Positions 5,940 to 64,000 of a DNA stretch of 64,000 bases are shown in pieces. A model generated the notes under the pieces. The model saw nothing but the letters and a program-made list of their open reading frames with translations. It did not search any database and was not told the origin of the DNA. Source of the DNA: Luteibacter rhizovicinus (lineage in GTDB: Bacteria > Pseudomonadota > Gammaproteobacteria > Xanthomonadales > Rhodanobacteraceae); contig NZ_SMCS01000010.1 of NCBI RefSeq assembly GCF_004342265.1, forward strand, positions 1 through 64,000, read 5' to 3'. The position numbers were made by a program, and so were the translations under genes. How positions within the stretch are numbered: position 1 is the first letter of the stretch; every line of letters starts with the position of its first letter.

Positions 5940-5976
5940 TAAAAAAGGCGATGCCCGAAAGCATCGCCTTTTTTCA
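5940..5976. terminator. Bidirectional terminator between glpK and the PfkB kinase
   Basis: An A tract, the stem ggcgatgc/gcatcgcc with a small loop, and a T tract form a symmetric hairpin that can stop both glpK (plus) and the convergent kinase gene (minus). Confidence 0.85.
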
Positions 5977-5994
5977 TCGCATCGAAGCGACGCG

Positions 5995-6930: not shown

Positions 6931-6936
6931 GCGTAG

Positions 6937-8244
<1,308 letters not shown>

Positions 8245-8295
8245 TCGGTGCTGACGACGGGGCTCATCGCGCGTCCCGTCGTCCTCGCCAAAGCC

Positions 8296-8434
8296 GGGTG
8301 CGTATCCGCACCCGCAATCCTTCGTAATACCGCGTTCGCCGACCGGCGAACGCCGGCCTGGGTACAGAGCCTCCATGCATCCCACGCTTCCAGCCTCGTC
8401 GTCCACCGATCCGACGCGCCGCTTCGCGGCGGGC
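8296..8434 (+). other. Three short hairpins in the mreB-mreC gap
   Basis: The 218-bp gap holds three perfect or near-perfect stems: gggtgcg/cgcaccc at 8296-8313, cgttcgcc/ggcgaacg at 8333-8352, and cgccgc/gcggcg around 8417-8432. None has a T tract, so none is a simple terminator. They may protect or attenuate the mreB message relative to mreCD. Confidence 0.4.
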
Positions 8435-8462
8435 GTCGTGTCGTCCGGAGCGTGCTGACGTC

Positions 8463-9473: not shown

Positions 9474-9961
9474 ATCGTCAACGCGTTCGTCTCCTGTGGT
9501 TCATCGCGACCTTGCTCGGGTCGCTGTTCCTCATGCTCATTCCGCTGCCGTCGCCGCTGACGCCGCTGAAACCCTACTGGCCCGCGCTGGTGCTGCTGTA
9601 CTGGTGCCTGCAATCGGGCGATCGCGTGACGCTCGGGCTCGCCTTCTGCATCGGCGTGGGCGCCGATCTGTTCGACGGCGTGTTGCTCGGCGAACAGGCG
9701 TTGCGCCTGACGGCGATGGTCTTCATCGCGCTGCGCTTCCGCTCGCGGCTGCGTTTCTTCCCGATGTGGCAGCAATCGCTGGCCGTGCTCGCCTTCCTGC
9801 TCAACGACCGTGTGCTGCTGTTGCTGGTGCGCGTGCTGGGCGGTGACGCGCTGCCGCCCGCCGAATACTGGATATCGCCCTTTGTCGGCGCGGCGATCTG
9901 GCCGTTCCTGTTCCTTATCCTCGACGACCTCCGTGCGCGACTGCGCATCCACGAGGCATGA
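9470..9961 (+). CDS. mreD: Rod shape-determining protein MreD
   Basis: A 163-residue polytopic inner-membrane protein with five or so hydrophobic helices, the usual size for MreD. It lies between mreC and mrdA with ATGA overlaps on both sides (9470-9473 and 9958-9961), which implies translational coupling. It is a member of the elongasome; its biochemical role in the family is structural. Confidence 0.9.
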   Translation: MNRQRVRLLWFIATLLGSLFLMLIPLPSPLTPLKPYWPALVLLYWCLQSGDRVTLGLAFCIGVGADLFDGVLLGEQALRLTAMVFIALRFRSRLRFFPMWQQSLAVLAFLLNDRVLLLLVRVLGGDALPPAEYWISPFVGAAIWPFLFLILDDLRARLRIHEA

Positions 9962-14176: not shown

Positions 14177-15303
14177 CGCGACGCGGCGCGGGGAGGGAGC
14201 CAAACCAGTCTCGTCGGATCGGCCGCGTTGCCGGTCTGTTGCTGCTTTGCGCGCTGGTGGCACTACTCGCGGGCTGCGGTGGATCGCGTAACGCGCGACC
14301 CTCGAAAGGCTCGCACGCCAGCGGTTCCTCGTCGCGTAGCGGATCGGGACGTAGCGACGATATCCGCAAATCGCAAGGCTCGCGCTACAGCGTCGACAAC
14401 GACAGCGTGCCGACCGATGCTCCCGACGTCAGCAAGTTGCCCGAGCCGGTTCCCAAGGTCGAGCCGCGTGCGCTGTACGGCAATAAGTCGCCCTATAGCG
14501 TGCTTGGCAAAAGCTATAACGTGCTGCCGTCCCCGCGCGGTTACGTCGAACGCGGCATCGCATCGTTCTACGGCAACAAGTTCCACGGCTATAAAACCTC
14601 CAGTCTGGAGGAGTACGACATGTATCAGTTCTCGGCCGCGCATAAGACCCTTCCGCTGCCGAGCTACGCGCGCGTGACCAATCTCGAGAACGGGCGCAGC
14701 GTCATCGTTCGTATCAACGATCGCGGACCTTTCCACGAGAATCGCATCATCGACCTGTCGTTCGCCGCGGCCGTGAAACTGGGCGTCTGGCCGAAGGGTA
14801 CGGGTCTGGTCGAAGTGCGGGCCATCGATCCCCAGCATCCCGGCGACGACGCGCCTCCGGCCTTCGTCGCCGCGCCGCCGCCGCGCCCCATGCCCGTCGC
14901 GCCGCCGGTCGTTCCCCGTCCCGCGGTCAGTGCGCCGCCGCCGTCCGCCGTTCAGACAATGCCGGCCACACTTTCGGGCACGGCCATCGTCGCTGGCCCG
15001 TTCACGGTGGCGCCCGCGCGGGTTCCGGCTGGCCCGATGCCTCCGGATGCGTCGGTCGTAGAGCCAAAACCTTCTATTTATCTGCAGGTTGGCGCATTTT
15101 CGGACATGTCCAACGCCGCCCGCGTCGCCGACCAGTTGAACCGGGCCGGCCTCGGACCGGTCAGTGTGGTGGAGGCCAGTATCAACGGGCGCAGCGTGCG
15201 CCGGGTGCGGGTCGGACCCCTGGCCGACGTGGACACCGCCGATCGCGTGACCGACCAGATAGCCAATATGGGCCTGCCCAGGCCGCAGGTCGCGGTAGAC
15301 TGA
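14173..15303 (+). CDS. rlpA: Septal ring lytic transglycosylase RlpA (lipoprotein)
   Basis: A 376-residue outer-membrane lipoprotein that degrades peptide-free (denuded) glycans. The lipobox LLAGC puts the lipidated Cys at residue 35. A double-psi beta-barrel domain spans about 130-215 (GIASFYG, YAAHKTLPLPS and RINDRGPF features). After a Pro/Ala-rich linker comes a C-terminal SPOR domain (about 300-375; YLQVGAFSDMSNA) that would bind denuded septal peptidoglycan. It overlaps the mltB stop by 4 bp, pairing two glycan-cleaving enzymes. Confidence 0.92.
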   Translation: MTRRGAGREPNQSRRIGRVAGLLLLCALVALLAGCGGSRNARPSKGSHASGSSSRSGSGRSDDIRKSQGSRYSVDNDSVPTDAPDVSKLPEPVPKVEPRALYGNKSPYSVLGKSYNVLPSPRGYVERGIASFYGNKFHGYKTSSLEEYDMYQFSAAHKTLPLPSYARVTNLENGRSVIVRINDRGPFHENRIIDLSFAAAVKLGVWPKGTGLVEVRAIDPQHPGDDAPPAFVAAPPPRPMPVAPPVVPRPAVSAPPPSAVQTMPATLSGTAIVAGPFTVAPARVPAGPMPPDASVVEPKPSIYLQVGAFSDMSNAARVADQLNRAGLGPVSVVEASINGRSVRRVRVGPLADVDTADRVTDQIANMGLPRPQVAVD

Positions 15304-17820: not shown

Positions 17821-18819
17821 ATGAGCCAAACCACCACATCCCCCTCCCGATCCATCCCTATCGCCGTGGTCGACAAGCCGGGCGAGAAAATGGTGGGCAA
17901 CGACAAAATTGGCCTGAATCGCGCCAATTTCGACACCAACGTGCCGACGTTGCGCAAGCCGAGCTGGATCCGCGTTCGCCTGCCGCAGGGCAATGCCGTG
18001 CAGCAGCTGAAGTCGCGCCTGCGCGAGAACTCGCTGGTCACGGTGTGCGAGGAAGCCTCGTGCCCGAACATCCACGAGTGCTTCAGCAAGGGCACCGCCA
18101 CGTTCATGATCCTGGGCGAGGTCTGCACGCGCCGCTGCTCGTTCTGCGACGTGGCCCACGGCCGTCCGCAGCCGCCCGATCCGCTGGAGCCGGCGCGCCT
18201 GGCCGAAACCATTCGCGACATGCGCCTGAAATACGTGGTCATCACCTCGGTGGACCGCGACGACCTGCGCGATGGCGGTGCGGAACATTTCGCGTCGTGC
18301 ATCCGCGCGGTGCGCCATGCCAGCCCGAATATCCGTATCGAAATCCTCACGCCGGACTTCCGCGGCAAGGGTCGTATGGAGCGTGCGCTCGAAGTCATGA
18401 AAGACTTCCCGCCGGACGTCTTCAACCACAATCTGGAAACCGTGCCGCACCTGTATCGCGAAGTGCGTCCGGGCGCCGATTACCAGTGGTCGCTCGACCT
18501 CCTGAAGCGCTTCAAGGCGCAGCATCCCGACGTTCCGACCAAGTCCGGCATCATGCTCGGTCTCGGCGAAACCCTGGAACAGGTGCTGGAGACCATGCGG
18601 GATTTACGTGCCCATGACGTCGACATGATCACGATCGGCCAATACCTGCAGCCGACGGCGCATCACCATCCGGTGGTTCGTTACTGGACGCCGGACGAAT
18701 TCGAGGCGCTGCGCGTCGCTGGTGAGCAGATGGGCTTCGGCCATGTCGCTTCCGGTCCGCTGGTGCGTTCTTCCTACCATGCCGACCTGATGGCTCACGC
18801 CGCCGGTGTCGTCGAATAA
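17821..18819 (+). CDS. lipA: Lipoyl synthase (radical SAM)
   Basis: A 332-residue radical SAM enzyme that inserts two sulfurs into protein-bound octanoate to make lipoate. Both iron-sulfur binding sets are visible: the auxiliary cluster Cys motif C-x4-C-x5-C ([12 protein letters not shown]) and the radical SAM CxxxCxxC (CTRRCSFC). The C-terminal RSSYHA motif, whose Ser ligates the auxiliary cluster, is also present. It is co-transcribed with lipB. Confidence 0.96.
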
Positions 18820-49198: not shown

Positions 49199-50563
49199 TC
49201 ACAAAACCGCGTAATAAACCCCATCCCCCCGCACCACAGTCAATAACAACTGCCGCGGCGGCTGCCCGCCAATCCCCTGCAACGCCTTCACACTTGTGAC
49301 GCGCCGCTGCCCGACCCCGATAACAATGTCGCCATCCTGCAACCCGGCGGACGCCGCCACCGTCCCGCGCCGCACGCCACTCAATACCGCGCCATACAAC
49401 CCCTGCGCCCGCTGCTCTCCATCCACATCCGTCAACGTCACCCCCGTCAGCCGCGGATCGACACGCCCGCCATCCAGCGTCGCCAGCTTCGCTGCCTCGA
49501 TCTTCGCCTCCACCTCGCGCGACGTTCCCTCTCGCTGGACGGTGAGATGCACCGACGTGCCCAACGGCAACAATCCTTCGGCATTACGTACATCCTGCGC
49601 ACTACGCACGGGCTTCCCGTCGACCGCCGTCAACACGTCGCCGATCTGCAACCCGGCGCCATCCGCGGGCGACCCCTCATTGATCCGGGTGACCACCGCC
49701 CCGGTTGTGTCCTTCAGCTTCAGCGCCTGCGCCACGCGCGGCGTCACATCCTGCACGTCCACGCCGAGATTCCCGCGCCGCACCTTCCCATAAGCCAGCA
49801 ACTGCTTCATCACCTGTCCGGCGAGGTCCACGGGAATGGCGAAGCCGATACCGACATTCCCACCCGAGGGCGAGAAGATCATCGAGTTGATACCCACCAG
49901 CTCGCCACGCAGATTCACCAGCGCGCCGCCGGAGTTACCGGGATTAATCGATGCGTCGGTCTGGATGAAACTCTGATAGCCCTTGCCCAACCCAGACCGG
50001 CCCAGCGCCGAGACAATGCCCGACGTCACCGTCTGACCCAGCCCGAACGGATCGCCCACCGCCACCACGAAGTCGCCCACGCGCAGTTGCGACGAATCGG
50101 CCAGGGGCAATGCCTGCAACCGGTCCGCGTCGATCTGCAGCACCGCGATATCGGTATCGGCGTCGCTACCGACCAGCTTCGCCTTGAAGTCGCGACCGTC
50201 CTGCAACGTGACCGTGATGTCGTCCGCGCTGCCCACCACATGGTGGTTCGTCAGCACATAGCCCTTGGCCGCATCCACCACCACGCCTGACCCCAGACTC
50301 TGCTCCACGCGCTCGCGCGGTACGCCCTGTCCGCCGAACAGTTGCCGGAAAAGCGGATCGTCGAAATACGGATCGCGGGCACGCACGCGCGTCTTCGTGG
50401 AGATATTCACCACGGCGGGCGTGACCTTCGTAAGCATAGGTGCCAGCGAGGGCAGGGCCTCGCCGCCCACGACCGGAGGCAGCGCTGCGTGGGCGGCGAA
50501 CGCGGTGGAGGCGAACAACAACGCAGCAAGCATCCGGCCAGCGATACGTCGAAAACAAAACAT
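49199..50563 (-). CDS. degQ: DegQ/DegP-type periplasmic serine endoprotease
   Basis: A 454-residue HtrA-family protease that degrades misfolded periplasmic proteins. The signal peptide is at about 1-26 (AAHAA). The trypsin-like domain has catalytic His in TNHHVV, Asp in DADTDIAV and Ser in GNSGGALV. Two PDZ domains follow (about 255-345 and 365-450). The overall length and short loop region fit DegQ rather than DegP. REP DNA flanks the gene on both sides. Confidence 0.85.
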   Translation of the reverse strand: MFCFRRIAGRMLAALLFASTAFAAHAALPPVVGGEALPSLAPMLTKVTPAVVNISTKTRVRARDPYFDDPLFRQLFGGQGVPRERVEQSLGSGVVVDAAKGYVLTNHHVVGSADDITVTLQDGRDFKAKLVGSDADTDIAVLQIDADRLQALPLADSSQLRVGDFVVAVGDPFGLGQTVTSGIVSALGRSGLGKGYQSFIQTDASINPGNSGGALVNLRGELVGINSMIFSPSGGNVGIGFAIPVDLAGQVMKQLLAYGKVRRGNLGVDVQDVTPRVAQALKLKDTTGAVVTRINEGSPADGAGLQIGDVLTAVDGKPVRSAQDVRNAEGLLPLGTSVHLTVQREGTSREVEAKIEAAKLATLDGGRVDPRLTGVTLTDVDGEQRAQGLYGAVLSGVRRGTVAASAGLQDGDIVIGVGQRRVTSVKALQGIGGQPPRQLLLTVVRGDGVYYAVL

Positions 50564-50616
50564 AGTGATTCTCCCTTAAGCAGTTCTGATCGATGGACAC
50601 CCGAGGCCGCCTACTC

Positions 50617-50757
50617 CTGTGGGAGCGCGCCTGCGCGCGAAAGCCAACGAAGCGAAGAAGCACAATGCCCACCTTCGCCAGCCCAATTTCCAGGCTGCGG
50701 ATGCGACGCACGGCACCTCCGCTCCGTTGGCTTTCGCGCGCAGGCACGTTCCCACAA
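50617..50757. repeat. Composite REP/BIME element (GTGG family)
   Basis: Direct arm ctgtgggagcgcgcctgcgc, centre with gccagcccaatttccaggct and gcggatgcgacg, and inverse arm ending acgttcccaca. It occupies the first part of the 516-bp gap 50564-51079. The rest of the gap holds a less GC-rich leader with the NrdR-like box. Confidence 0.84.
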
Positions 50758-50889
50758 GAGAGCAAACGCAGCGAGCGAAAAACCTCCATTTCGACCGCAA
50801 CAAAATACCCAGGTTTCCCAGCTCTCAAAAACCGTTCCACGACCCTTTACATCGTCCATGCCCAGCAGTACTGTTCCCACCTGCGGCAA

Positions 50890-50905
50890 CCACAACATCT
50901 TGTGT
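50890..50905 (+). promoter_or_regulatory. Putative NrdR box upstream of nrdJ
   Basis: The 16-mer ccacaacatcttgtgt matches the palindromic NrdR consensus acaCwAtATaTwGtgt at 13 positions. A weak second site, tcacctagtgctggtg, begins 31 bp further on (50921), the spacing typical of NrdR box pairs. Inference: dATP-dependent repression of nrdJ by NrdR. No B12-box/cobalamin riboswitch motif is seen in this leader. Confidence 0.42.
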
Positions 50906-51079
50906 TCTCTTCTTCACACATCACCTAGTGCTGGTGATACGGTTCGGAAGAACAAAGCTGGAAACGCGTATCGGCAGGCTTGGGCCGGGGGCCGGATCGC
51001 GAGGTCGGACAAGGATGGTTTCGAAGTGTCCGGGGGCGGCGCTTCGAGGTTGTGCCACGACGACAATAAAGGCCTGGTC

Positions 51080-54000
51080 ATGGCCGAGAACGAGGACGAC
51101 AAATTCATGAGCACAGCACGTGCGCAAGCCATCGGGCTTGAGACCGCGGCGATTCCGCTCCAGCCCGCCTCCTACGACATCTGGGACAAGAAGTACCGTC
51201 TGAAGGCGAAGTCCGGCGAGCCCGTCGATGGCAGCGTGGACGAAACCTATTCGCGCGTCGCTCGCGCCCTTGCCGATGTCGAAATCACCGAAGAGCTTCG
51301 CGCCCATTGGTTCGAGCGCTTTCTCTGGGCCCTGCGCCGCGGTGCCATTCCCGCCGGCCGCATCACGTCCAATGCGGGTGCGCTGGCGCACAAGCCGGCC
51401 ACGTCCACCATTAACTGCACCGTGTCGGGAACCATCCACGACTCGATGGACGACATCCTCGAGAAGGTGCACGAAGCAGGCCTCACCCTGAAAGCCGGCT
51501 GCGGCATCGGCTACGAATTCTCGACGCTTCGTCCGCGCGGCGCGTACGTCTCCGGCGCTGGCGCACACACGTCCGGCCCGCTGTCGTTCATGGATATCTA
51601 CGACAAGATGTGTTTCACCGTCTCGTCCGCCGGCGGTCGCCGCGGCGCGCAGATGGGTACGTTCGACATCAGCCATCCGGACGCCAAGGAATTCATCCGC
51701 GCCAAGCGCGAAGACGGCCGGCTGCGCCAGTTCAACCTGTCGCTGCTGATCACCGACGGCTTCATGGACGCCGTGGAGAACGACCAGGACTGGCCGACCG
51801 TCTTCCCGGTACACGTCAAAGAGCAGGACGAAATCGACCTGACCGACCCCACCAAGGTCGTCTGGCGCGAATGGCCCACCACGCAGAACTACGTCGTCCG
51901 CGAAGACGGTCTGGTCGCCTGCAAGATCTACGGCCACATCCGCGCGCGGCACCTGTGGGACATGATCATGGTCTCGACGTACGACTACGCCGAGCCCGGT
52001 TTCATCCTGATCGACCGCGTCAACGAGATGAACAACAACTGGTGGTGCGAGCACATCCGCGCGACCAACCCCTGCGTCACGGCCGATACCTGGGTGCAGA
52101 CGTCGGAAGGTCCGCGCCAGGTCGCCGACCTCATCGGTACGCCATTCGCCGCCCGCGTCGACGGCAAGGACCACGCCACCGGTCCGGAAGGCTTCTTCCT
52201 TACGGCACGCAAAGACGTCGTGAAGCTCGCGACCGATCAGGGCTACCAGCTTCGCCTGACCGCCGATCATCGCGTGCGCAAGGTCGTTCGCAAGACGCGC
52301 TGGGCGCTGGACACCGACTGGTGCGCCGCTGGCGACCTGCGTCCGGGCGACGAGGTGCTGCTCAACAACCATCGCGGCGGTAACGCGTGGGCTGGCAAGT
52401 ACACCTTTGAACAGGGTTTCCTGCTCGGTCTGCTGGTCGGCGACGGCACGCTGAAGAACGACAAGGCCGTGCTGTCCGTTTTCCATGCTGCCATGGCGGC
52501 CAACGGCGGCATCGCCGCGCCGTCGCCCGGTGTCTATGCGCTGATGGACGCTGCCGAGACGGCCGCCCGCACGCTGCCGCACCGCGCGGACTTCGCCGGT
52601 TGGCAGTCGGTGGGCAACCGTAACGAATTCCGTCTGTCGCTGGGCGCGCTGAAAGAGCTGGCGCTTGAAGTCGGCATGACACCCGGCAACAAGTGCATCG
52701 GTCCGGCAGCCGAGCAGGCGTCCAGCGATTTCAGTCGCGGTTTCCTCCGCGGTCTGTTCGATGCCGACGGTTCGGTGCAGGGCAGCCAGTTGAAGGGCGT
52801 CAGCGTCCGTCTGGCCCAGTCCGACCTGCCGCGCCTTGAAGCCGCGCAGCGCATGCTGCTGCGTCTGGGCATCGCCTCGACGATCTACGCCAACCGTCGC
52901 GACGCGGGCACGGCCCGCTTGCCCGACGGTCGTGGTGGCATGGCCGACTACGCGACGCAGGCTCAGCACGAGCTGGTGATCGCAGGCGACAACCTCGCGA
53001 CCTTCGCCGAGCAGATCGGCTTCGCCGACACGGACAAACAGGGCAACCTCAAGCGCCTGCTTGCCGCCTATGTCCGTACGCCGAACCGCGAGCGCTTCAC
53101 CGCCACCGTCGCCTCCATCGAGGCCGACGGTACCGAAGCCGTCTACGACGTGCAGGTGCCGGACATCAACACGTTCGACGCCAATGGCCTGCACGCGCAC
53201 AACTGCGGCGAACAGCCACTTCCGCCGTACGGCTCCTGCCTGCTGGGCTCGGTGAACCTCACCACCTTCGTGCGCGATCCGTTCGGGCCGAAGGCCCGCT
53301 TCGACTGGGACGAGTACCGCGAGGTGGTGAAAATCTTCACCCGCATGCTCGACAACGTCGTTGAGATCAACGGCCTGCCGCTGGAACGGCAGCGCCAGGA
53401 AATCCTGGGCAAGCGCCGTCACGGCATGGGCTTCCTGGGCCTGGGTTCGACCCTGACCATGCTGAAAATGCGTTACGGCAGCACCGACGCCGTCGGCTTC
53501 ACCGACGAAGTTTCCCGCGAAATGGCCGTGGCCGGTTGGGAAGTGGCACTGGAACTGGCGAAGGAAAAAGGTCCGGCGCCCGTCCTGGCGGCCACCTATG
53601 AAGTCACCGGCGACATGCTGCGCAAGCGCCCCGAAATGGCGCGCGACGGCTACAAGATCGGCGACGCCATCCCCGGCCGCATCCTGCACGCGAAGTATTC
53701 GCGCTACATGCAGCGCGTGGCCGAAGTGGCCCCGAACCTGATCGAAGCCCTGGCCGAAACCGGCGCGCGCTTCACCCATCACTCGTCGATCGCGCCCACC
53801 GGCACCATCTCGCTCAGCCTGGCCAACAATGCCTCCAACGGCATCGAGCCCAGCTTCGCGCATCACTATTCCCGCAATGTGATCCGCGAAGGCAAGAAGT
53901 CGAAAGAGAAGGTCGAGGTCTTCAGCTACGAGCTGCTGGCCTACCGCGCCCTGATCAACGGAGAGGCCATGCCGTACTCCGACGATCCGAAGGCGAAGCT

Positions 54001-54385
54001 GCCCGAATACTTCGTTGCGGCCGACGACATCAGCCCGAAAGAGCATGTCGACATCCAGGCTGCCTCCCAGAAATGGATCGACTCGTCGATTTCCAAAACC
54101 GCGAATGTCCCGACGGACTATCCGTACGAAGACTTCAAGGACATCTATTTTTACGCTTATAAACAGGGTTTAAAGGGATGTACGACATTCCGTTTCAACC
54201 CCGCGGCGTTCCAGGGTGTGCTGGTCAAGGAAACCGATCTTGAGAACACCCTCTACCGCTTCGAGTTACAAGACGGTAGCTTTGTCGAACTGAAAGGCAA
54301 CGAGCAGGTCGAATACGACGGTGAAATGCATACCGCCGCGAACCTTTTCGATGCTTTGAAGGAAGGCTATTACGGCAAGTTCTGA
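51080..54385 (+). CDS. nrdJ: Adenosylcobalamin-dependent ribonucleotide reductase with intein
   Basis: A 1101-residue precursor. Removing the intein (residues 332-708) leaves a 724-residue class II ribonucleotide reductase catalytic subunit (NrdJa). It reduces ribonucleotides to deoxyribonucleotides through a cobalamin-generated thiyl radical, independent of oxygen. Extein features are STINCTVSG and AGCGIGYEF (redox cysteines), the [14 protein letters not shown] active-site loop (split by the intein after NP) and the IAPTGTISL phosphate loop. ATG 51080 is chosen (aaagg upstream); ATG 51107 is possible. The C-terminal zinc-ribbon part typical of one-piece NrdJ is missing here and is encoded separately 1.1 kb downstream. 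Confidence 0.93.
52073..53203 (+). other. Intein (377 aa, LAGLIDADG homing endonuclease type) in nrdJ
   Basis: The insert begins with Cys1 (CVTADTWV) and ends with HN before the extein Cys (block G HAHN/C). Block B is LRLTADH, with the Thr/His that assist the first acyl shift. Two dodecapeptide motifs are visible, LLVGDGTL (block C) and [10 protein letters not shown] (block E), so the homing endonuclease looks intact. Block F is [21 protein letters not shown]-like. The +1 residue is the radical-bearing Cys of NPCGEQ, so the enzyme cannot work until splicing occurs. Codon use matches the host gene, suggesting long residence or a similar source. Confidence 0.92.
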
Positions 54386-54405: not shown

Positions 54406-55356
54406 ATGTCTGAAGAAAACCAGGTCGTCGAAAGCGAAGCTTTCGAATTCGACACGATTACCACCGAAGTCACGCCGGTAAACGAAGCGTCCGTTGCTTC
54501 CGAAGCCCCCGTGGCCAAGAAGGTCGTGAAGCGCAAGCCGCGCAAACCGAAGGTCGTCGCACCGGTCGCAGCACCGGTCGTCGAAGAGCCGGTTGCCGCC
54601 ACCCCGGCGAAGAAGGCTGTGCGCAAAGCTACGAAGAAGGCAGCCGCGAAGAAGGCAGCGCCGGCCAAGAAGGCCGCTGCTAAGAAGGCGTCCGTCAAAA
54701 AGACCGCCAAGAAGGCAACGGCTAAGAAGCCGACGGCCAAGAAGGCTCCGGCCAAGAAAGCCGGCGTCAAGAAGGCTGTGAAGAAGCCGGCAGCGAAGAA
54801 GGCCGCCGTCAAGAAAGCTCCGGCCAAGAAAGCCGCAGCCAAGAAAGCGGTGAAGAAAGCCGTCAAGAAAGCTGTCGTGAAGAAGTCGGCAGCGAAGAAG
54901 GCACCGGCCAGGAAGGTCAGCGCCAAGAAGGCTGTGAAGAAGTCGGTCGCCAAGAAGGTTTCGGCCAAGAAGGCTTCGGTCAAGAAGGTCGTCAAGAAAG
55001 CTGTAAAGAAAGTCGCCAAGAAGGCCGGCGCCCGCAAGGTCGCCGTCAAGAAGGGCGTCCGCAAGGCAGCCACCACCGCACGCAAGGCCGTCAAGAAAGT
55101 CGCCGGTCGCGTCGCGAAGAAAGCTTCCACCGCCCGCAAGGCGGCGAAGAAAGCTGTGACCAAGCTGGACCGTAAGGCCGGCGTTCGCAGCAGCACGGCC
55201 AAGAAGACGGTCCGCAAGGCCGCCAGCACGAAGACGGCGCGTAAGCCCGTTGCGAAGAAAGCCGCCCGCAAAGCGGTGAAGAGGCCCACTGCCAGCAAGA
55301 AGACGGGTCGTACCGCGGCACGCAAGTCCGCCGCACGTGGCGTCCGTCGCAAGTAA
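54406..55356 (+). CDS. Histone H1-like / AlgP-like Lys-Ala-rich protein
   Basis: A 316-residue protein with an acidic N terminus (about 1-35) followed by some 270 residues of low-complexity Lys/Ala repeats of [12 protein letters not shown] and KPAAKK type. The tail has Arg/Lys (AARGVRRK at the C terminus). This matches bacterial H1-like nucleoid proteins and AlgP of Pseudomonas. It should bind DNA non-specifically. It starts 20 bp after nrdJ and lies between the two reductase genes, so all three are probably co-transcribed. Confidence 0.82.
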
Positions 55357-55439: not shown

Positions 55440-56240
55440 ATGGCGATCAAGATCGACAAGAAGATCACGGGCTACCAGGTAGTCAAGCCCGAAGACAAAG
55501 CCGCCCCGGCAGCAACCGCGGCACAGGCCAAAGACATCGCGCCGATGGCCGAAGTCATCCAGATGCACGAAAGCGTCGAGCGTCCCGAGACCCTCGTCGG
55601 CAGCACGTACAAAATAAAGTCGCCGCTCTTCGAGCACGCGCTGTACGTCACCCTGAACGACATCGTCCTCAACGCCGGCACCCAGCACGAACAGCGTCGC
55701 CCCTTCGAAATCTTCATCAACTCGAAGAACATGGACCACTTCCAGTGGATCGTGGCGCTCACCCGAATTCTGTCCGCCGTCTTCCGCAAGGGCGGCGACG
55801 TGACGTTTATCGTCGAAGAACTCAAAGCAGTCTTCGATCCGCGCGGCGGCTACTTCAAAGCCGGCGGCGTCTACATGCCCAGCATAGTCGCCGAAATCGG
55901 CGCGGTCATCGAAACCCACATGAAGTCCATCGGCCTCATCCACGACCCCGAAATGAGCGACGCCACCCGCGCGCTGATCGCGGAGAAGCGTGCGGCTTAT
56001 GAGGCGGCGAGCAAGAAGCCGGCGGCGGCAAGCGCCACTGCGTCGCTCTCTGCAGGAGCCCGCTCCGCGGGCGATTCACCGTCCGACGGTGCGTCGGCAT
56101 CGCAGGTTGAAGCGGTTCAGAGCGAAGCCTCAGGCTTCCCGCCCGGCGCAACCCTCTGCGTTAAGTGCAATACCCAGGCGCTGGTTCTGATGGATGGGTG
56201 TCAGACTTGTTTGAATTGTGGGTATTCGAAGTGCGGGTGA
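55440..56240 (+). CDS. nrdJb: NrdJb: TSCPD-domain and zinc-ribbon partner of NrdJ
   Basis: A 266-residue protein corresponding to the C-terminal part of one-piece class II reductases. Residues about 70-165 fit the TSCPD domain (PFEIFINSKNMDHF, then ALTRILSAVFRKGGD). The last 30 residues are a Cys-rich ribbon (CVKCNT, DGCQTCLNCGYSKCG) like the redox/zinc end of NrdJ. The low-complexity linker between them contains an in-frame REP element (56051-56080). A split NrdJa/NrdJb pair is known in Pseudomonas. Its stop marks the boundary to lower-GC DNA. Confidence 0.8.
   Translation: MAIKIDKKITGYQVVKPEDKAAPAATAAQAKDIAPMAEVIQMHESVERPETLVGSTYKIKSPLFEHALYVTLNDIVLNAGTQHEQRRPFEIFINSKNMDHFQWIVALTRILSAVFRKGGDVTFIVEELKAVFDPRGGYFKAGGVYMPSIVAEIGAVIETHMKSIGLIHDPEMSDATRALIAEKRAAYEAASKKPAAASATASLSAGARSAGDSPSDGASASQVEAVQSEASGFPPGATLCVKCNTQALVLMDGCQTCLNCGYSKCG
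56051..56080 (+). repeat. REP element inside the nrdJb coding sequence
   Basis: tgcaggagcccgctccgcgg followed by gcgattcacc matches the GTAG-family REP through foot and stem; only three positions of the first 25 differ from the copy at 26022, and the hairpin is intact. It is read in frame as SAGARSAGDSP within a flexible linker. Confidence 0.75.
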
Positions 56241-56271
56241 TGATCGACGTTCCTGCGAAATCGGGGATACG

Positions 56272-57159
56272 GTGTACGACCTTCATTTAACCTCTTTGCA
56301 AGAGGTCTGGTCTCTTCAATCACTGGTTCGGATGCGAGAGCTTCTGCCACTGATGAGTCCGTTTGCTCTGTCGACGCATTGGTCATCAAATGAGTTAGTT
56401 GTGCTGGGGTCGTTAGCGAGCGCGTCCGCTCGATCGACCGAGAGCGTTCTTCTCCTTTGTAGGTACGGTCAGTTATGGGACGCCGAGCTCGCGAGTCGTT
56501 CCGTTTTGGAAGGGACGTTGAAATTTGCTTATCTACTTCAGAGTGAAACAACGTTTAACGCGAGATTTCACGAGTACTCTGAGGTGCAATTTGAAACATC
56601 GTTGATGAAGGATCATAAGAAGGCCGCCGCCACGGTGAGTGCTCTATCTGGCTTGGGGGTGGAATGGCTTAGGCCATTTACCGACAGATTGCTTAGCGAT
56701 GACGAGTATCGAGAGTACTCGGATCGAACATCAGCGCAGGAACGACGACGAATCGACGCAAGCTGGGGCTTCACTAACCTGCTGGCGACCCTTTCAAAGG
56801 GTGAAGAAGGTGGCTTCAAAGGTATCACTGCACTTGCAATAGGTTATTCGACGGCTAGTCATATCCAGCATGCGGATTTTGTCGGTGTATCCCTCCCTAG
56901 CGATCGCGAAGCGCGCTCAGTGGAAAACCGTAATTACCTTCACCTATCCCATTTGGGGCGTCTCATATCAGACGTTTTCTCTATGCTTTTCCTGCGGCTG
57001 ATGGCGGCATACCGGTTCCTTGGTATTGACGAGGCGCCAATTAAGGACGCAATGGCAGCGCTGGATGATCTATTGAGTCCGATGCTGGAGGCTCAATGCA
57101 AATGGGCTGAGATTGAATATGGTGTGACTGATGCTCCGTCTGGGCACTGGTGTGCGTAA
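56272..57159 (+). CDS. DUF5677-like protein at the island edge
   Basis: A 295-residue protein, mostly helical. Central features (ARSTESVLLLCRYGQLWDAELASRSVLEGTLKFAYLL, then a C-terminal HIQHAD segment) resemble the DUF5677 family, whose role is unknown. GTG 56272 is chosen because gggga lies 5-6 bp before it; an in-frame GTG at 56218 inside nrdJb has no ribosome binding site. Base composition is clearly lower in GC than all genes to its left and like the defence genes to its right. It converges on the AIPR gene, leaving a 148-bp gap. Confidence 0.5.
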   Translation: MYDLHLTSLQEVWSLQSLVRMRELLPLMSPFALSTHWSSNELVVLGSLASASARSTESVLLLCRYGQLWDAELASRSVLEGTLKFAYLLQSETTFNARFHEYSEVQFETSLMKDHKKAAATVSALSGLGVEWLRPFTDRLLSDDEYREYSDRTSAQERRRIDASWGFTNLLATLSKGEEGGFKGITALAIGYSTASHIQHADFVGVSLPSDREARSVENRNYLHLSHLGRLISDVFSMLFLRLMAAYRFLGIDEAPIKDAMAALDDLLSPMLEAQCKWAEIEYGVTDAPSGHWCA

Positions 57160-57307: not shown

Positions 57308-59347
57308 CTAGACAAAGCCCGCATCGATTGCTCGACGCCATGCTTCCTCGAGCTTTGTTAGTCGGAAGCCACGAAAGTTGAAACTTGCCGCTACAGCAGC
57401 GCGCTCCACGAGTTCAGACTCTCCGTCGGTCAATCCTGCCGCCTTCAAATTCCACGTGTGTAGCCGCTTCCATGTGCCGTCCTGAGCGAAGCCGTGCGCG
57501 CGGTCGCGCCAAGATCGTCCCCTGTCTTTGCTCTGTTTCGTATCGACAAGCGTGGATTCAAAATCTGAAGAGAGAGTTACGTCGCTGGCCTGCAACCGCG
57601 TCCAGCACGCCTCCTTCTTTGCCCATTCGGTAACAAGGCGATTCTTCAGCTGTTCAGGCGGAATGTCGATCAGGTACGGTAACGTGAACTCAGCTAGGCG
57701 GCGCGCTTCCAGCATAAATGAATCTGGTGCTCGCTGGGTTCGCCAAATGCCTTCAAAGTCAATGTTTAGATTCTTGCTAGCCATGCGATCACTCATTAGT
57801 GCGAGCGTATAGCTACAAAGCTGCCGAAGGATCGATCCGGGATACCACTTCTGCGCCGGGATGTCGGCATCTAAGCTCTTGGTTAAAATGCATTTGCACA
57901 CCAGTTCTCTGAAGTACGTAATCTCGTAACTTTCAGGATTGCGGGCCCACGCTTCCTGCACTATACGAGCGAATGCCGCGACGTTCTTCTGTGCGCCAGC
58001 GCAGACGCTGTGAGGTAGTGCGGCCCAAGTTACCTCATATCGGGCTACGTCTGTCTTGGTCAGTTTCTGTTTTTTAGGGTGTAGCAATTCCCAAGCTTTA
58101 GTCGCGGCTCCTTTTCTTCGTTTCAATTCGACGTTGTAGCTTCCCTGGGTTCTTTCGAAGAACCAATAACCTGGGATCTCTCCTGGTTTTGCCGAAGCGG
58201 GTGCAACCGCTTGACGCGACAATGCCTCAAGCCGCTTGAAATATGGATGGCCGGCAAACAGGTCAGAAGCGCTGACGGCATTCTGGGCATTCGCATAGCG
58301 AGCAATTGCGTGAACTGCGTCTTCGAATCCCTCCTCAGGGATTCTCGACAGCTTCATCTGTACGAATACCTTGCTAAGGTCGTAGTTAGCCTTCATTGCC
58401 CAGTAAAGAGACGCAGTTGTTTGCCCGCCATTTACAACTTGGAAATCTTTTACAAACGAGATTACTTTCTGTCCATTCGTATCGGCTACAAGATCGAGAT
58501 GAGATACCGTTGCCGTTAATCCATTGTTGTACGCAAAGAACATGGCGGGATCGGTGCGTAGGGTGTCGCGAATACCTTTGTTTACCTTACGGCCCTCGCC
58601 AAGAAAGGCTCGAACGTTCTGCTCTAGAATTCTTCCACCAAAGCGATCGTATAGTCCAGCAAGTACTACCCCAGGCACGATACACATATACGAGTCATAG
58701 CTTCCCGTCCCTCCGGCGGGGAGTGCAGGAATGCCTGCACCGAAAGATTCATCGAAGTTGATCTCGATCTCCTCGCGCCCACGAATTGATGTCTCGACAC
58801 GGCAAAGGCGCGCTACGTCCCAAAGCTGAATCTCGACATCTCGGATACCGATTGCCAGTATCGGCATCTTACCGAGAGACGTGCCCAGTTCACGATCCGA
58901 GACCAAGTAGATCTTGACCTTCAGCAGGTCCTCGCTGGCAAATGCATGAACCTCTTGGGCAAGTGCATGCCCTGGGTGACTGTCGTCCCAGCACTGAGCA
59001 ATATCGCCGTGAAGGCTACCCTCAACGAACTTGAAGGCTGACATTACTAAACTTCGCGTCTCATCTGTAGCAAGGGATGGAGGTTGGTCGGCTCCCGAAT
59101 AGTCGCCTACAACAATACTCAGCAAACCATCGCTATGAGAGATGTTAAAGGCGTCAATGAGTACAGGGGACCGATTCCATACTGCAGAGGCATAGCAGAG
59201 GTGGTACTCGACAAATTCCTCACCCGCTTCAAGAACTTGACAGGCCTTGTCAATGAATGCTGTGCGCTCGTAGTTGCCGCCACCTCTGGCATCCGCTCGA
59301 ATCTCACCAATAAGATTTCCACGATATAGCTCAACGTCTTCAAGCAT
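57308..59347 (-). CDS. AIPR-family abortive infection phage resistance protein
   Basis: A 679-residue protein of the AIPR family, named after a plasmid phage-resistance protein. The family core is clear: NVRAFLGEGRKVNKGI (about residues 244-259), DPAMFFAYNNGLT (about 266-278) and DFQVVNGGQTTASL (about 301-314). The biochemical activity of the family is not established. The start at 59347 is chosen because aggggacggag precedes it and it clears the previous stop; Met at 59389 would overlap it. It is the last gene of the island operon, 26 bp behind the DUF4420 nuclease gene. Confidence 0.88.
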   Translation of the reverse strand: MLEDVELYRGNLIGEIRADARGGGNYERTAFIDKACQVLEAGEEFVEYHLCYASAVWNRSPVLIDAFNISHSDGLLSIVVGDYSGADQPPSLATDETRSLVMSAFKFVEGSLHGDIAQCWDDSHPGHALAQEVHAFASEDLLKVKIYLVSDRELGTSLGKMPILAIGIRDVEIQLWDVARLCRVETSIRGREEIEINFDESFGAGIPALPAGGTGSYDSYMCIVPGVVLAGLYDRFGGRILEQNVRAFLGEGRKVNKGIRDTLRTDPAMFFAYNNGLTATVSHLDLVADTNGQKVISFVKDFQVVNGGQTTASLYWAMKANYDLSKVFVQMKLSRIPEEGFEDAVHAIARYANAQNAVSASDLFAGHPYFKRLEALSRQAVAPASAKPGEIPGYWFFERTQGSYNVELKRRKGAATKAWELLHPKKQKLTKTDVARYEVTWAALPHSVCAGAQKNVAAFARIVQEAWARNPESYEITYFRELVCKCILTKSLDADIPAQKWYPGSILRQLCSYTLALMSDRMASKNLNIDFEGIWRTQRAPDSFMLEARRLAEFTLPYLIDIPPEQLKNRLVTEWAKKEACWTRLQASDVTLSSDFESTLVDTKQSKDRGRSWRDRAHGFAQDGTWKRLHTWNLKAAGLTDGESELVERAAVAASFNFRGFRLTKLEEAWRRAIDAGFV

Positions 59348-59373
59348 GGCTCCGTCCCCTGATTGACTTGGTC

Positions 59374-60348
59374 CTACTGTTGCATGCAAAACATCGATAT
59401 GGTGGTGTCGAAATCGGAGCGAAACTCTTCAAGGTTTTCAAGCGATAGTGAGTAAGTTGCATCGATGATGCGATGATCGACGTTGCTGCGCGCTATTCGC
59501 GGAAAATGTCCCCGCACCTCGAACGCGATCTGCCCGGTTACTTCATAGGTCAGTGAGTCATACGTTGACGAATGTACGTAGCCGCGCCGGCACAATAGCG
59601 ACTCTGCCAGTATTTCGTCTCCATCTTTTTCGGCGTCTTCGAGAAGATCTTGAGCCAATTCGTTCAGCGAGAGCGCATCGATATGTTGAGACGGTGAAAG
59701 TTCGGCCACGATTAGTCGGAGTGGGAGGATTGGACTGTCTAGTTGATTTAACGAAGAGATGCTGACTTGATTGCGACTTCCCGTGAGTCGAACCTTCATC
59801 TCGATAACGCTTTGTGTGGAGGCAAAGTCCTGAGGATGGCAATCGGGAGCAACCCATGAGCGGAGTGCGCCGGGAAGCCCCAGCCGCGGAATCAGATTTT
59901 TCCTCAATAGCCAAAGTTCGCCTATAAGTCCGCGTACTTCGCGGTCGCTCAGAAGGCTTCCTATGGAGAGTCCGAGAAGCCTTTGCCATCGCTTGAGTCT
60001 GCCGAAGAGCTGTCTGGTGGCCTCTGATTCGGTTGTGGCCATGGAACTGATTTCGATGATGTCATTGCACAGTCTAAGGAATAAATCGCGATCTTCTTCC
60101 TGGCGTAGGAATATGTGGAGTGAATATCCTGCGTCACTTCCAGGCTCTATTTCAACTGAAATACCGCGAAGTTGAGGTAGTCGCCCTGGAAGGGTTGCTC
60201 GCGTCATCCCTTTCGTCACAAGACCGATGGCTCCCGAGGGGTGAACGGCCCAGAAGAGGTCTAAAGGATGTGGTTGATTAAGTCTGCGCCCAACCCAGTT
60301 CGTTGACGATTGAAGGCCCGCCCATGGGTCATTCAGTGGCGTCGTCAT
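59374..60348 (-). CDS. PD-(D/E)XK motif protein (DUF4420), putative nuclease
   Basis: A 324-residue protein of the DUF4420 family, predicted to have a PD-(D/E)XK restriction-endonuclease fold. Visible are the conserved LIGELWLL (about 141-148, catalytic Glu helix), HPQDF (about 171-175, with the metal-binding Asp) and IEMKVR (about 182-187, the E-x-K pair). The start at 60348 has ggag upstream and overlaps the Z1 stop by 20 bp; Met at 60378 is an alternative. Inference: this is the DNA-cutting subunit of the system. Confidence 0.85.
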   Translation of the reverse strand: MTTPLNDPWAGLQSSTNWVGRRLNQPHPLDLFWAVHPSGAIGLVTKGMTRATLPGRLPQLRGISVEIEPGSDAGYSLHIFLRQEEDRDLFLRLCNDIIEISSMATTESEATRQLFGRLKRWQRLLGLSIGSLLSDREVRGLIGELWLLRKNLIPRLGLPGALRSWVAPDCHPQDFASTQSVIEMKVRLTGSRNQVSISSLNQLDSPILPLRLIVAELSPSQHIDALSLNELAQDLLEDAEKDGDEILAESLLCRRGYVHSSTYDSLTYEVTGQIAFEVRGHFPRIARSNVDHRIIDATYSLSLENLEEFRSDFDTTISMFCMQQ

Positions 60349-63049
60349 CGTCGTCTCCGTCAACGTCGAACTGACCAAATAGTTCGCGATAAGCGACTAT
60401 GTTTGCGGTATAGGCAATGCGGCTCTCCACTTCACCATCGGCTAAACCAGGGAAACTGATGCCATAGGCTGCATGAACCTGCTTCTTCTTCTCGCGGGGT
60501 GTTGCACTATCGTCGGTTATGCTCACATCGAGAATATGGACCATCAAGAGTGGCTTGGTTCGAACTTTGCGGTAGTACAAGTCGGCAATATTGGTTCCAG
60601 AGTTCTTCTTCTTGAACTCTACTTCGGCCTCTGCCGCTTGGGCATCGTTAATGCCTGCACGCTCGAGACCTCGAGATGCTACGCGTCTAGCATTGCCCGA
60701 GATCTTCAGGGTCCGCTTATCCAATTTTGCGTTACGCTCCTGCATCCCGATTTCGAAGCCTGCTATGTGGAATGGGACGGCTTCTTCGGATCTCTTCGAA
60801 ACAAAGACGACGTCCCATTTGTCTAATGCGCGTCGTTCTGTGTACTGCTCTACGAGCGCGGAAGACATTTCGATGTTTGCGGGGTGTAATACGAAAGACC
60901 GGATGAAATCGACAATGATGTTCGACTGGACGTCCGTGAAAAGTCGACTGGGCCTGCGCCTCGTCTTTGTTGTGATGGGAGGGAATGGCTCGCACGAAAT
61001 GCCGGCCAACTGAAGTTTTTCGCCCAAAACAAGGGTGGCCTTCAAATTGGCCGTGCAAACCTCATCTGTAGCAAAGATGACAGCAGACTCTACAAGTTTT
61101 GCAGCAAGGCCAACTTCTCGAATGATCTCCTTTGCCGCGCGCATCTTGTTTCGAGCGGTCACGAGAAGTGCCTCCGGATGGGAGCGCACCGCGAAACCAA
61201 AGTCCAGGGGTGTCAACTTTAAAGACTCCATTTTGGCTATTTCGTCTCGTAATTCCTCCGTGGCGTTAGCAATGTACGAATACCATTCGAGTGCCTCCGT
61301 CTTTATAAAGAGACGACACAAATCAGCATAGCCATCCCGATATCCAAACCATCGGCCCATTTGAAGTAGGGTGTCATACATCTGCGTGTTTCTAAGGAAG
61401 TAACTTATGGTCAGCCCCTCCAAAGTGAAACCGCGCGAGAGCGAGTTGCCCCCCACGGCAATCACTGTTAGCCCCGCCTCGCCGTGACTACGATAATCTA
61501 GTGCTCCTGGCCCCGACCTTGCGTTGACCTCGGCAACTGCTATGCCCGCCGCCGCTTGATGAAGGGCTGACTGGATACGATCCCAGGATTCCGCGGTGGT
61601 TGTGCGATACATCGCGGCCCAAGCTTCGTGAATGCTTCGGATGTATGGGTCGCGGAGCGCCTCACTTCCACTGATCGCATAACGATTCTCGACGGCGTCT
61701 CGAAGTCGCTTCACGTGTTCTGCAATGCGTTCGGCTATCTTGCTCTGCACGGAGGTGAACCGCGATACATTGACAAGCATCGAGTGGTGTCGCTTGCCTT
61801 GTCCGCGCAGAATTCTGATCGCCTTGGACAGAACAAAGCAATCGATTGCTCGAACAAGGGACGGGTGTAGTTTATCGATCGTGGTGTCGATCTTGTGAGA
61901 GAGGGGTAGCCAATCGTCGGTATCATTTACTTCGACAGTAAGTGACTCGCCACTGCCTTGCTCAAGAAAAAACCGATTCGCACCTACATACGTCGATGGA
62001 GCATCGAGTCCAACGATAAAATCTCTGGGAAATAGATCGTCACCACTCATTTCGCTCGACGTGTCTGGGTCGATGAATATGTTTGCAAAGGGTGTTGCGG
62101 TGTAGCCGATATAAGTATTCTTAGTGGATATATTCAATAGCTGACGTATGAGCTGATTAATCGTGTTTGGCTTTGTTGGATCTTGTGAAGTGTTGACTGA
62201 TGCATTGTCTGCTTCATCATCGATGACTAAGATGGGCATCGTAAGTCGATCGCCACTCGAGCTCGTGCTCTGTAGCCAGTCGATCAGATTCGTTAAAATA
62301 GACTTATTCTTCTTGATTACGAAGATTGCTGGCTGCGACAGATTATTGATCGGTACTCCTAGCCCTTCTGCGCGTACGCGCAGAAAGTCATATGCACGGC
62401 TTGTGTAAGCGGTGGCGCTAAATGAGCGATCCAAAGCGCCAACACCAAGAAACTTTGGGTTGATCTTGCCCCCCAAGAGTTGGTCGCTGTCTCTACCAAC
62501 GAAACCTTCGTCAATGCGCTCTTGTGTCTGTGAGCGAAGATTGCTGTGGATTCCCGCAATGAGGATGACAAGTTTATAGCCGGCATCTGCGGCCTTATTT
62601 ATGAGGCCAACATAGTTTGCTGTTTTGCCGCTTTGGACGTGCCCAACTACGAGGCCACGTCTACTCCAAGAGCCTGCGTCCGTCGGATCGCCGGCTAGGT
62701 CAAGTATTGAATCGGTGATCTCGTCAAGCCGATCTACAACTTTGGGGCCGAAACCGCTTTGCAAGAGATGATTTTTGTAGCGTCGCCAGTAGTTCCATTG
62801 GATTTCGTGGCGTTTTCCGAGGAGCCATGCCTTGTGGTCCCCCTTGAGTGTGTGCGCTGGACCAAGGTCAACCATGAATTCACGTTCGATCTGCCGAGCG
62901 ATATCCTCATGGTCGTGGATGCTAAGCATGCCGGTGAACATCGGCAACGCGCTAAGATTTGTGACGAGTGTCCGAATCTCATCCTGAGTCGGCGCCTTGT
63001 TCATGGCGATGCCGGCTCTTGCCATGTTCAGTAACATTTCCCTGTTCAT
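60329..63049 (-). CDS. Z1-domain superfamily II helicase-like ATPase
   Basis: A 906-residue protein of the Z1 family, found with restriction-modification and AIPR genes. Helicase motifs are intact: Walker A GHVQSGKT (136-143), Walker B DDEAD (277-281), motif III-like GYTATPFANI (315-324), GGNSLSRGFTLEGL (533-546) and arginine-finger motif QMGRWFGYRDGY (563-574). The last third is the Z1-specific C-terminal region and ends in an acidic run. A strong ggggg lies just before the ATG. The gap to the GHKL gene upstream is 27 bp. Confidence 0.9.
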   Translation of the reverse strand: MNREMLLNMARAGIAMNKAPTQDEIRTLVTNLSALPMFTGMLSIHDHEDIARQIEREFMVDLGPAHTLKGDHKAWLLGKRHEIQWNYWRRYKNHLLQSGFGPKVVDRLDEITDSILDLAGDPTDAGSWSRRGLVVGHVQSGKTANYVGLINKAADAGYKLVILIAGIHSNLRSQTQERIDEGFVGRDSDQLLGGKINPKFLGVGALDRSFSATAYTSRAYDFLRVRAEGLGVPINNLSQPAIFVIKKNKSILTNLIDWLQSTSSSGDRLTMPILVIDDEADNASVNTSQDPTKPNTINQLIRQLLNISTKNTYIGYTATPFANIFIDPDTSSEMSGDDLFPRDFIVGLDAPSTYVGANRFFLEQGSGESLTVEVNDTDDWLPLSHKIDTTIDKLHPSLVRAIDCFVLSKAIRILRGQGKRHHSMLVNVSRFTSVQSKIAERIAEHVKRLRDAVENRYAISGSEALRDPYIRSIHEAWAAMYRTTTAESWDRIQSALHQAAAGIAVAEVNARSGPGALDYRSHGEAGLTVIAVGGNSLSRGFTLEGLTISYFLRNTQMYDTLLQMGRWFGYRDGYADLCRLFIKTEALEWYSYIANATEELRDEIAKMESLKLTPLDFGFAVRSHPEALLVTARNKMRAAKEIIREVGLAAKLVESAVIFATDEVCTANLKATLVLGEKLQLAGISCEPFPPITTKTRRRPSRLFTDVQSNIIVDFIRSFVLHPANIEMSSALVEQYTERRALDKWDVVFVSKRSEEAVPFHIAGFEIGMQERNAKLDKRTLKISGNARRVASRGLERAGINDAQAAEAEVEFKKKNSGTNIADLYYRKVRTKPLLMVHILDVSITDDSATPREKKKQVHAAYGISFPGLADGEVESRIAYTANIVAYRELFGQFDVDGDDDDDATE

Positions 63050-63076
63050 AATCCCCCCTGAGGATGTCTATTTGTG

Positions 63077-64000
63077 TCAAATGATGCGTCTTAGTCCTGC
63101 CAATATTTGACGGCATCTTCTGTCATTGGCAAACGGATGCGTTTGCAGTATGGAGCTGCAGATGGCCTCTGATATGGTGTCTGTATTTGGGGCCACGGCA
63201 TTGACGTAGGCTGAAAGTATGCCTCGGAGTCCGTCTTCATCTAGGCTGGGCTGTGTTCTGCCGGGGTCGGACGCCACGTCTGAAAACATTGATTCCAGCG
63301 GTAATGTCGCTTCGATAGCCGTCAAGAGATTTTCAAAGTCAGGCGAAGATGTCTGGGTTTCTAGATGCCTAACAAGCGGGTTCGCCCGATTGATCTCATA
63401 ACGAACATTTTCACGTTCGGAGATGCGAAGCCACATATCCATCTCCTTGTTGCGTGTTTGCACATTGCCGCGATGCCTGTATGGTCGTGCTCCTTGTTCG
63501 CTCATGCGTTCAATAAGAGGCTTGAGTCGCTCGCGTATTTCAGCGGGTGGACGAATTAGGGACTTGCGTACGTCGACTCCCCATTCTGCGTCGAGGGCAG
63601 TAGGTACGTCCACGCGGACGCGAAGAAGTCTTGTAATCTCGGATCGTCGGGTTAATCCAAGCCATGTTCCGTAGGCAATCAGTCGTTGCGCCCTATAGAT
63701 ATAGAGTCCCTGTGTTTCAGCAAGGCTCAGTCCAAGCGAAAGATCTTTTAGCTGTACTGGCGTGATTCGTTGATGGTGGGGAAGAGTAAAAGCCTGCGCA
63801 TGAACGATGTGACCCTCAACATGGATCGTTTCAGGTACATGTGCATCCGCGCGCGGCGTCATGCGCTGAGCGAAGGGGTCTAGCGCCGGGACAGGACTTT
63901 CATTGATGGCAATTGTAATTGCCGATCGCTGCTGACCAGCATCTGGACTTATGAATCGATGAAACGTTAGTGCGAGGTGTCGCCGGCCTTCGGAAAATAG
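63077..64000 (-). CDS. GHKL (MutL/MORC-like) ATPase, C-terminal part, cut by window edge
   Basis: 307 codons of an open frame that continues past the right edge; an internal Met at 63862 is not the start, because coding continues through LDPF and RRHLALTFHRF before it. The order LDPF, then the S5-fold-like ETQGLYIYRAQRLIAYGTWLGL and a long helical tail fits the prokaryotic MORC/MutL-like GHKL ATPases of restriction systems. The N-terminal ATP-binding motifs lie outside the window. It is the most upstream visible gene of the Z1-DUF4420-AIPR operon. Confidence 0.8.
   Translation of the reverse strand, partial: LFSEGRRHLALTFHRFISPDAGQQRSAITIAINESPVPALDPFAQRMTPRADAHVPETIHVEGHIVHAQAFTLPHHQRITPVQLKDLSLGLSLAETQGLYIYRAQRLIAYGTWLGLTRRSEITRLLRVRVDVPTALDAEWGVDVRKSLIRPPAEIRERLKPLIERMSEQGARPYRHRGNVQTRNKEMDMWLRISERENVRYEINRANPLVRHLETQTSSPDFENLLTAIEATLPLESMFSDVASDPGRTQPSLDEDGLRGILSAYVNAVAPNTDTISEAICSSILQTHPFANDRRCRQILAGLRRII

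Follow-up and report, generated by a model that had tools for sequence, protein, structure and literature searches.

Gene content of the operon and its known relatives

The window analyzed here, 64,000 nucleotides of Luteibacter rhizovicinus (NZ_SMCS01000010.1, positions 1 to 64,000), is part of a 103-kb contig and ends inside an operon that very probably belongs to the Mza-like group ("Type II" in Miller et al. 2022). Inspection of the open reading frames (ORFs) placed four genes on the minus strand in 57308-64000, encoding a MORC-type GHKL ATPase, a Z1 superfamily II (SF2) ATPase, a DUF4420 nuclease and an AIPR protein. The MzaE-like AIPR protein (57308..59347, 679 aa) scored 265.2 bits against Pfam AIPR, 87.3 bits against AIPR_N and 5.4e-69 against the PADLOC model MzaE, and the MzaD-like DUF4420 PD-(D/E)XK nuclease (59374..60348, 324 aa) scored 198.4 bits against Pfam and 3e-21 against MzaD. 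The MzaC-like Z1 ATPase/translocase (60329..63049, 906 aa) matched Pfam Z1 with 266.6 bits and MzaC at 1.3e-141, and the MzaB-like GHKL ATPase (63077..64570, 497 aa) matched HATPase_c_3 with 99.5 bits and MzaB at 1.8e-77. All Pfam matches of these four core proteins exceed the gathering score, and Pfam, PADLOC and NCBIfam are concordant on the protein families of the operon. The ATG starts are our own choice. A 27-bp gap separates the GHKL and Z1 genes, the Z1 and DUF4420 genes overlap by 20 bp, and the DUF4420 and AIPR genes lie 26 bp apart, as an earlier sequence-only reading of the window had described. That reading had also called the GHKL gene partial, and it is indeed cut by the window end at 64000 and runs on to 64570 on the contig.

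The same reading took the block for a four-gene operon, which was right as to the four genes and too small as to the operon. On the contig past the window end, a C5-cytosine methyltransferase gene (64551-66149, minus strand, 532 aa; Pfam DNA_methylase, 140 bits; best PADLOC model DrmMII, 1.1e-82) overlaps the GHKL gene by 20 bp on the same strand, and beside it lies a divergent Vsr gene (66182-66673, plus strand, 163 aa; Pfam Vsr, 94.5 bits; PADLOC Vsr, 1.4e-36). This methyltransferase is the only C5 enzyme found in its genome at E 1e-10. The PADLOC scan of the extended contig, proposed by the sequence-only reading, covered eight proteins and had MzaB-E, DrmMII and Vsr among its matches; DrmA, DrmB and DrmC were absent from the matches of these eight proteins (for the methyltransferase, from the best 25 of 53 families).

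The MzaABCDE system was reportedly described by Gao et al. in 2020. The window operon shares its four core genes, arranged B-C-D-E, but its proteins fall far under the NCBIfam equivalog cut-offs for MzaB-E (288.5/850, 567.9/1500, 107.7/420 and 321/1050 bits, respectively), and we therefore regard the operon as a relative of Mza rather than as Mza sensu stricto. It also differs in having the C5 methyltransferase as its first gene and no sigma factor MzaA (locus L002, 20 kb in length, has no sigma match), and in the linked methyltransferase and Vsr, which are missing by annotation from all three Escherichia coli loci viewed. The putative system that Miller et al. (2022) designate "Type II" combines Z1, PD-(D/E)XK (printed as DUF4220), cytosine methyltransferase and AIPR proteins, is MORC-associated, is about 20% identical to MzaBCDE and has a sigma factor in only a few cases (PMC9523054). 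The window operon carries the Z1, DUF4420, AIPR and MORC/GHKL proteins as well as the cytosine methyltransferase, and in a comparison with the running text we found no clear difference. Iyer, Abhiman and Aravind (2008) had predicted such operons to be restriction-modification (R-M) systems from gene neighborhoods; the portion of their paper examined lists for a third MORC operon type the MORC motif GhXhhpXXRhl, an SF2 helicase with DThhQXuRhFG, a restriction endonuclease (REase)-fold protein with E-D-ExK, methylases, Vsr and AIPR (PMC2292703). This is the gene set of the locus, and in that portion we did not meet the AIPR architecture or the apparent methyltransferase exchange reported below. 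A further survey mentions an island in which DUF4420 occurs together with a Z1 helicase, a Dcm-like methylase and an endonuclease resembling EcoRII (PMC5379612).

The link that the sequence-only reading drew to GHKL/MORC, Z1, REase-fold and cytosine methylase systems thus holds, the methylase now having been found. Its description of the system as undescribed does not, since the PADLOC models MzaB-E match all four proteins and both Iyer et al. 2008 and Miller et al. 2022 contain the gene set. Its further remark that the mechanism of the whole operon is poorly described agrees with our search, which found none in the literature covered, a body that leaves out most subscription papers. The kind of system is already known; new here are the two genes outside the window, the architecture of AIPR and a testable hypothesis on methylation sensing.

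Motifs and predicted folds of the core proteins

Direct reading of the GHKL protein yielded D35/N39, D66xG68xG70 and G97-G102, together with the MORC S5 motif GhXhhpXXRhl in the form GLYIYRAQRLI, which separates MORC from paraMORC proteins; G288, Y290, Y292, R293 and R296 are invariant in 38 of 38 aligned sequences. The key motifs that the sequence-only reading had assigned to the Z1 and DUF4420 proteins were confirmed. The Z1 protein contains QSGKT, DDEAD, TATP and DTLLQMGRWFG, and in its predicted structure (predicted local distance difference test, pLDDT, 79.6) residues ~82-640 align with the SF2 enzymes Mfd (Z 16.0), FANCM (15.7) and RIG-I (15.1), so that it models as an SF2 translocase. 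In DUF4420, E144, D174, E183xK185 and Q202 are invariant in 36 of 36 aligned sequences. By phmmer, AIPR, Z1 and DUF4420 had no sequence relative in the PDB at E 1 or less, and a Pfam scan of the locus proteins returned no recognized DNA-reading domain.

The AIPR model (pLDDT 86.9; predicted template modeling score, pTM, 0.48) suggests an architecture that adds to what is described for the family. Aligned with VIA-align, residues 1-190 resemble PD-(D/E)XK nucleases (AF1548, Z 9.9; FokI, 9.6; MspJI, 9.3). AF1548 is a protein of unknown function, and its placement in the PD-(D/E)XK class is our own. The third strand of this nuclease-like fold lacks (D/E)xK and position 65 is Asp in just 20 of 38 sequences, and the N-terminal part of AIPR is for these reasons probably not an active nuclease. 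A role for AIPR as the DNA nuclease is accordingly disfavored; with the catalytic set of DUF4420 intact throughout, DUF4420 is the likely DNA-cutting subunit. Residues 214-363 weakly resemble ParB-N (5k5d, Z 6.6, 101 residues aligned, root mean square deviation 3.5; Noc, Z 6.0) and SspE (Z 4.3), pointing to a possible ParB-like domain, although the likeness may reflect merely a common arrangement. Thirty AIPR residues are invariant in 38 sequences, and many of them fall in 214-363, among them N306-G307-G308-Q309-T311 (NGGQxT). With Foldseek by itself, no match to AIPR fell below E 0.34.

We also considered the central domain of AIPR as a relative of GmrSD/DUF262, on the analogy between its NGGQT and DGQQR. 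This candidate was rejected, as hhalign against 18 GmrSD_N proteins (three of the 21 fetched were omitted for want of a DGxQR motif) returned a probability of 0.51 on a scale of 0-100. An earlier study assigns AIPR an N-terminal HEPN domain and associates the family with R-M (PMC3506569). In our model, on which no search for HEPN was made, the N-terminal part is alpha-beta and PD-(D/E)XK-like, not all-helical, and the C-terminal part is helical.

Apparent methyltransferase exchange and candidate mechanisms

We gathered 56 loci on the basis of similarity to Z1 or MzaE and screened them with profiles built from the proteins of the window, plus one for a sigma factor, counting as four-core those loci in which all four core genes scored above 150 bits each. 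Within the fetched stretches, a C5 methyltransferase accompanied the core in 40 of 41 four-core loci, Vsr in 31 and a sigma-70 gene in 8. The one locus lacking the methyltransferase has its core at the edge of a contig. A single C5 methyltransferase (E 1e-10) was found in its genome, starting 0.8 kb into a different contig and accompanied by Vsr and a terminal piece of an IS66 transposase; this suggests, short of proof, a locus split between contigs. By score, the methyltransferases of 16 of the 40 loci fall outside the main subfamily, and some of these stand on the opposite strand or beside an REase of their own. Sigma-type loci (L035, L066, L070 and L069/L098) can hold the same methyltransferase subfamily. 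Two loci depart from the usual layout: in L006 the AIPR gene is ahead of GHKL-Z1-DUF4420 and the methyltransferase is convergent, and L095 (Devosia plasmid CP104975.1), counted among the 41 and excluded from later comparisons, is a broken copy with GHKL, Z1 and AIPR each in several fragments.

The main methyltransferase subfamily comprises 24 loci, in which the pairwise distances of the four core proteins correlate with one another at 0.87-0.96 and with those of the methyltransferase at 0.37-0.42 (Pearson; Spearman 0.05-0.17). Particular pairs look, from their sequences, like cases of methyltransferase exchange. The cores of L069 and L070 are 86-93% identical (average 89%) and their methyltransferases 45%, with 20-32% in the most variable part; at E 1e-10, only one C5 methyltransferase was found in the genome of L069. 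L033 and L079 share 69-85% in the core (average 77%) and 48% in the methyltransferase, which is sited 5' of GHKL in both. The reverse is seen between L085 and L070, whose methyltransferases are 87% and Vsr proteins 80% identical and whose cores reach only 29-38%. Overall, main-subfamily pairs with cores at least 60% identical have methyltransferases below 50% in three of eight cases (L033 being in two of the three), against none of two control pairs from a set of EcoRII-type R-M loci with REases at least 60% identical. The lowest 40-column window of the core is still at 65% in L069/L070; in L033/L079 it falls to 38% at the AIPR C-terminus, a part that is equally diverged (38%) in L079/L077, whose methyltransferases are more alike. 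A further pair, L009/L010 (cores 89-94%, methyltransferases 23% identical), was dropped from the argument because another methyltransferase-like ORF is truncated by the end of the L009 contig, and in L010 the methyltransferase adjoins a type II REase of its own. What appears to be new is that the marking enzyme is seemingly swapped freely while the machine stays the same.

We give an even chance to the full reading of the window block as a mobile, Mza-like anti-phage operon with a complete methylation-linked mechanism. In this mechanism the C5 methyltransferase would mark host DNA, and Vsr would limit the mutations arising from C5 methylation. The core proteins would form one ATP-driven machine, in which the Z1 ATPase would move on double-stranded DNA, the MORC-type ATPase would probably clamp or loop it, DUF4420 would cut it, and AIPR would gate or assemble the complex rather than cut. 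Methylated host DNA would keep the machine off, and unmarked DNA would probably be attacked. This picture builds on the gene content, the intact motifs, the predicted folds, the recurring presence of methyltransferase and Vsr, and the pair contrasts; defense activity, assembly of a complex, the identity of the cutting subunit and the sensing of unmarked DNA are inferred. We put at about even odds a core that leaves the methylated sequence unread and is blocked by methylation whatever its sequence, as proposed for DISARM; the pair contrasts, the loose relation to DrmMII and the lack of a recognized DNA-reading domain in the Pfam scan lead us to favor this mode. DISARM is reported to recognize DNA by structure and to have its ATPase activity lowered by methylated DNA, and repression by methylation that needs no fixed sequence is proposed for it (PMC9142583). 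It has in common with the window operon an SF2 ATPase core, a methylation mark and, by best model, the type of methyltransferase, and it serves here as a working analogy only.

A bolder form, which we hold tentatively and rather doubt, makes the core a sequence-blind machine that takes exchangeable "password" cassettes, each a DrmMII-like C5 methyltransferase with Vsr, of a type that would also serve unrelated effectors; Mza of E. coli might then borrow the chromosomal Dcm-Vsr pair. Effectors that appear to share the cassette type are at hand in Mza-like and SspFGH-like form (see below), with DISARM represented by the model name only. If the core is indifferent to the methylated sequence, phages could not escape by losing target sites, and one mark could serve several defense machines. 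Mza-like systems would then be joined mechanistically to DISARM, and what MORC ATPases, which are related to the eukaryotic MORC proteins, do in prokaryotes would become directly testable.

Several points weigh against the full reading of the operon. All three E. coli MzaABCDE loci viewed (55 genomes matched) have no annotated C5 methyltransferase in a 23.6-kb stretch, the named control genome having one somewhere in its genome. The EcoRII-type control, small at 14 R-M loci from 14 of the 18 matched genomes, shows an equally low R-M correlation (Pearson 0.45, Spearman 0.17); the low core-methyltransferase correlation is therefore no argument for a sequence-blind core, and we rejected distance-matrix correlation as proof of exchange. 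The pair contrasts come down to roughly two events, and divergence of the variable region is no proof of a different target. Some core segments, such as Z1 641-700 (partial r 0.25-0.29) and AIPR 641-680 (0.28), weakly track the methyltransferase variable region; in each of the four core segments tested, at most one of 500 permutations gave a value as high. The link to DISARM is also loose, since the 26 of 26 scanned methyltransferases that match DrmMII models match general type II and Druantia methyltransferase models as well.

The main rival, which we consider unlikely, is a conventional site-specific ATP-dependent R-M system of the CglI kind, in which one of the core subunits would read an unmethylated target, Z1 would translocate from there, and cutting would occur when complexes meet. 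Its precedent lies in the characterized CglI and BceSIV systems, which pair a Z1-containing ATPase with a separate nuclease, include a methyltransferase and depend on NTP hydrolysis; for CglI, NTP hydrolysis by the ATPase is reported, translocation is proposed, and complexes communicate along DNA ahead of cutting (PMC4267653, PMC5737866). The two tracking segments and the low control correlation would also fit this rival. However, CglI, NgoAVII and BceSIV are described as two subunits plus a methyltransferase, with a phospholipase D-family (PLD) nuclease and no GHKL or AIPR protein, whereas the nuclease of the window is the PD-(D/E)XK protein DUF4420. Moreover, cores 77% and 89% identical on average go with methyltransferases only 45-48% identical, and the lowest core windows of L069/L070 and L033/L079, the latter with its counterpart in L079/L077, also count against this rival. 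Were the methyltransferase itself the target-recognition subunit, recruiting the core to unmethylated sites as in Type I, Type III and Type ISP systems, its presence in 40 of 41 loci and a core unchanged when it changes would both be accounted for. A strict docking interface is nevertheless disfavored by the 16 of 40 enzymes from outside the main subfamily, some on the other strand or with their own REase, and the E. coli loci viewed do without a linked enzyme, which makes this alternative improbable. Least probable is abortive infection, in which the ATPases would sense infection, AIPR would then kill or arrest the cell as a toxin-like effector, and the methyltransferase would be accessory. 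It draws on the family name (abortive infection phage resistance, expanded in PMC9122126) and on the invariant residues of AIPR, and is opposed by an N-terminal part that models as PD-(D/E)XK-like rather than all-helical HEPN and by the full catalytic set of DUF4420.

Insertion site, distribution and neighboring genes

The sequence-only reading had taken the lower GC of the block as support for horizontal gain, and the wider comparison agrees. GC content is 52.1% in 57308-66149 of the contig versus 64.0% in 1-54400 of the window. Of the 23 genomes of the genus, three, its own among them, have a full-length Z1 relative, and one more has partial matches; in a class-wide sample, Z1 relatives were found in 9 of 369 genomes (own included) at E 1e-30, and across the phylum an MzaE model matched 21 of 398 genomes, again counting its own, with no score above the equivalog cut-off. 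A conserved gene 3' of the ribonucleotide reductase (55440..56240, plus strand), matched in 23 of 23 genus genomes, precedes the cargo in the three genus genomes with the operon and in a fourth with a different Z1 system. Contiguous nucleotide similarity to all 14 genus loci compared stops between 56236 and 56246, from where the cargo varies. This break, together with the GC difference, marks the boundary as a variable site, probably a defense hotspot with repeated gains. Past it, alignment with L031, whose Z1 system is 57% identical, resumes over parts of the core; with L112 and L116 it resumes solely at a permease gene (contig position near 71.1-72.6 kb). The first gene beyond the conserved flank is DUF5677-like (56218..57159, plus strand; Pfam 26.0 bits, below the cut-off of 27.1; GC 51.5%).

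Other genomes of the genus carry different contents at this site. In L111 (genome G011), positions 18036-18128 hold a second partial copy of the end of the boundary gene, 79% identical over 95 columns and lying ~0.9 kb past the first copy; it may be a footprint left by integration. L041 (genome G015) has a different set of Z1, DUF4420 and methyltransferase genes with no GHKL or AIPR matches, perhaps the Type I of Miller et al. In L102 (genome G019), 4165-14590 encodes Vsr and a DrmMII-like methyltransferase followed by SspF-, SspG- and SspH-like genes; this methyltransferase belongs to the window's subfamily, is 42% identical to that of the window, and has no Mza-like core within the 19.9 kb read.

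Upstream of the boundary, an ORF at 54406-55356 (316 aa) consists mostly of Lys/Ala-rich repeats and is histone H1-like by eye. The ribonucleotide reductase ORF (50342-54385) contains a ~1.1-kb insert at window positions 52077-53202 that has no counterpart in the aligned gene of genome G012 and that looks, by eye, intein-like.

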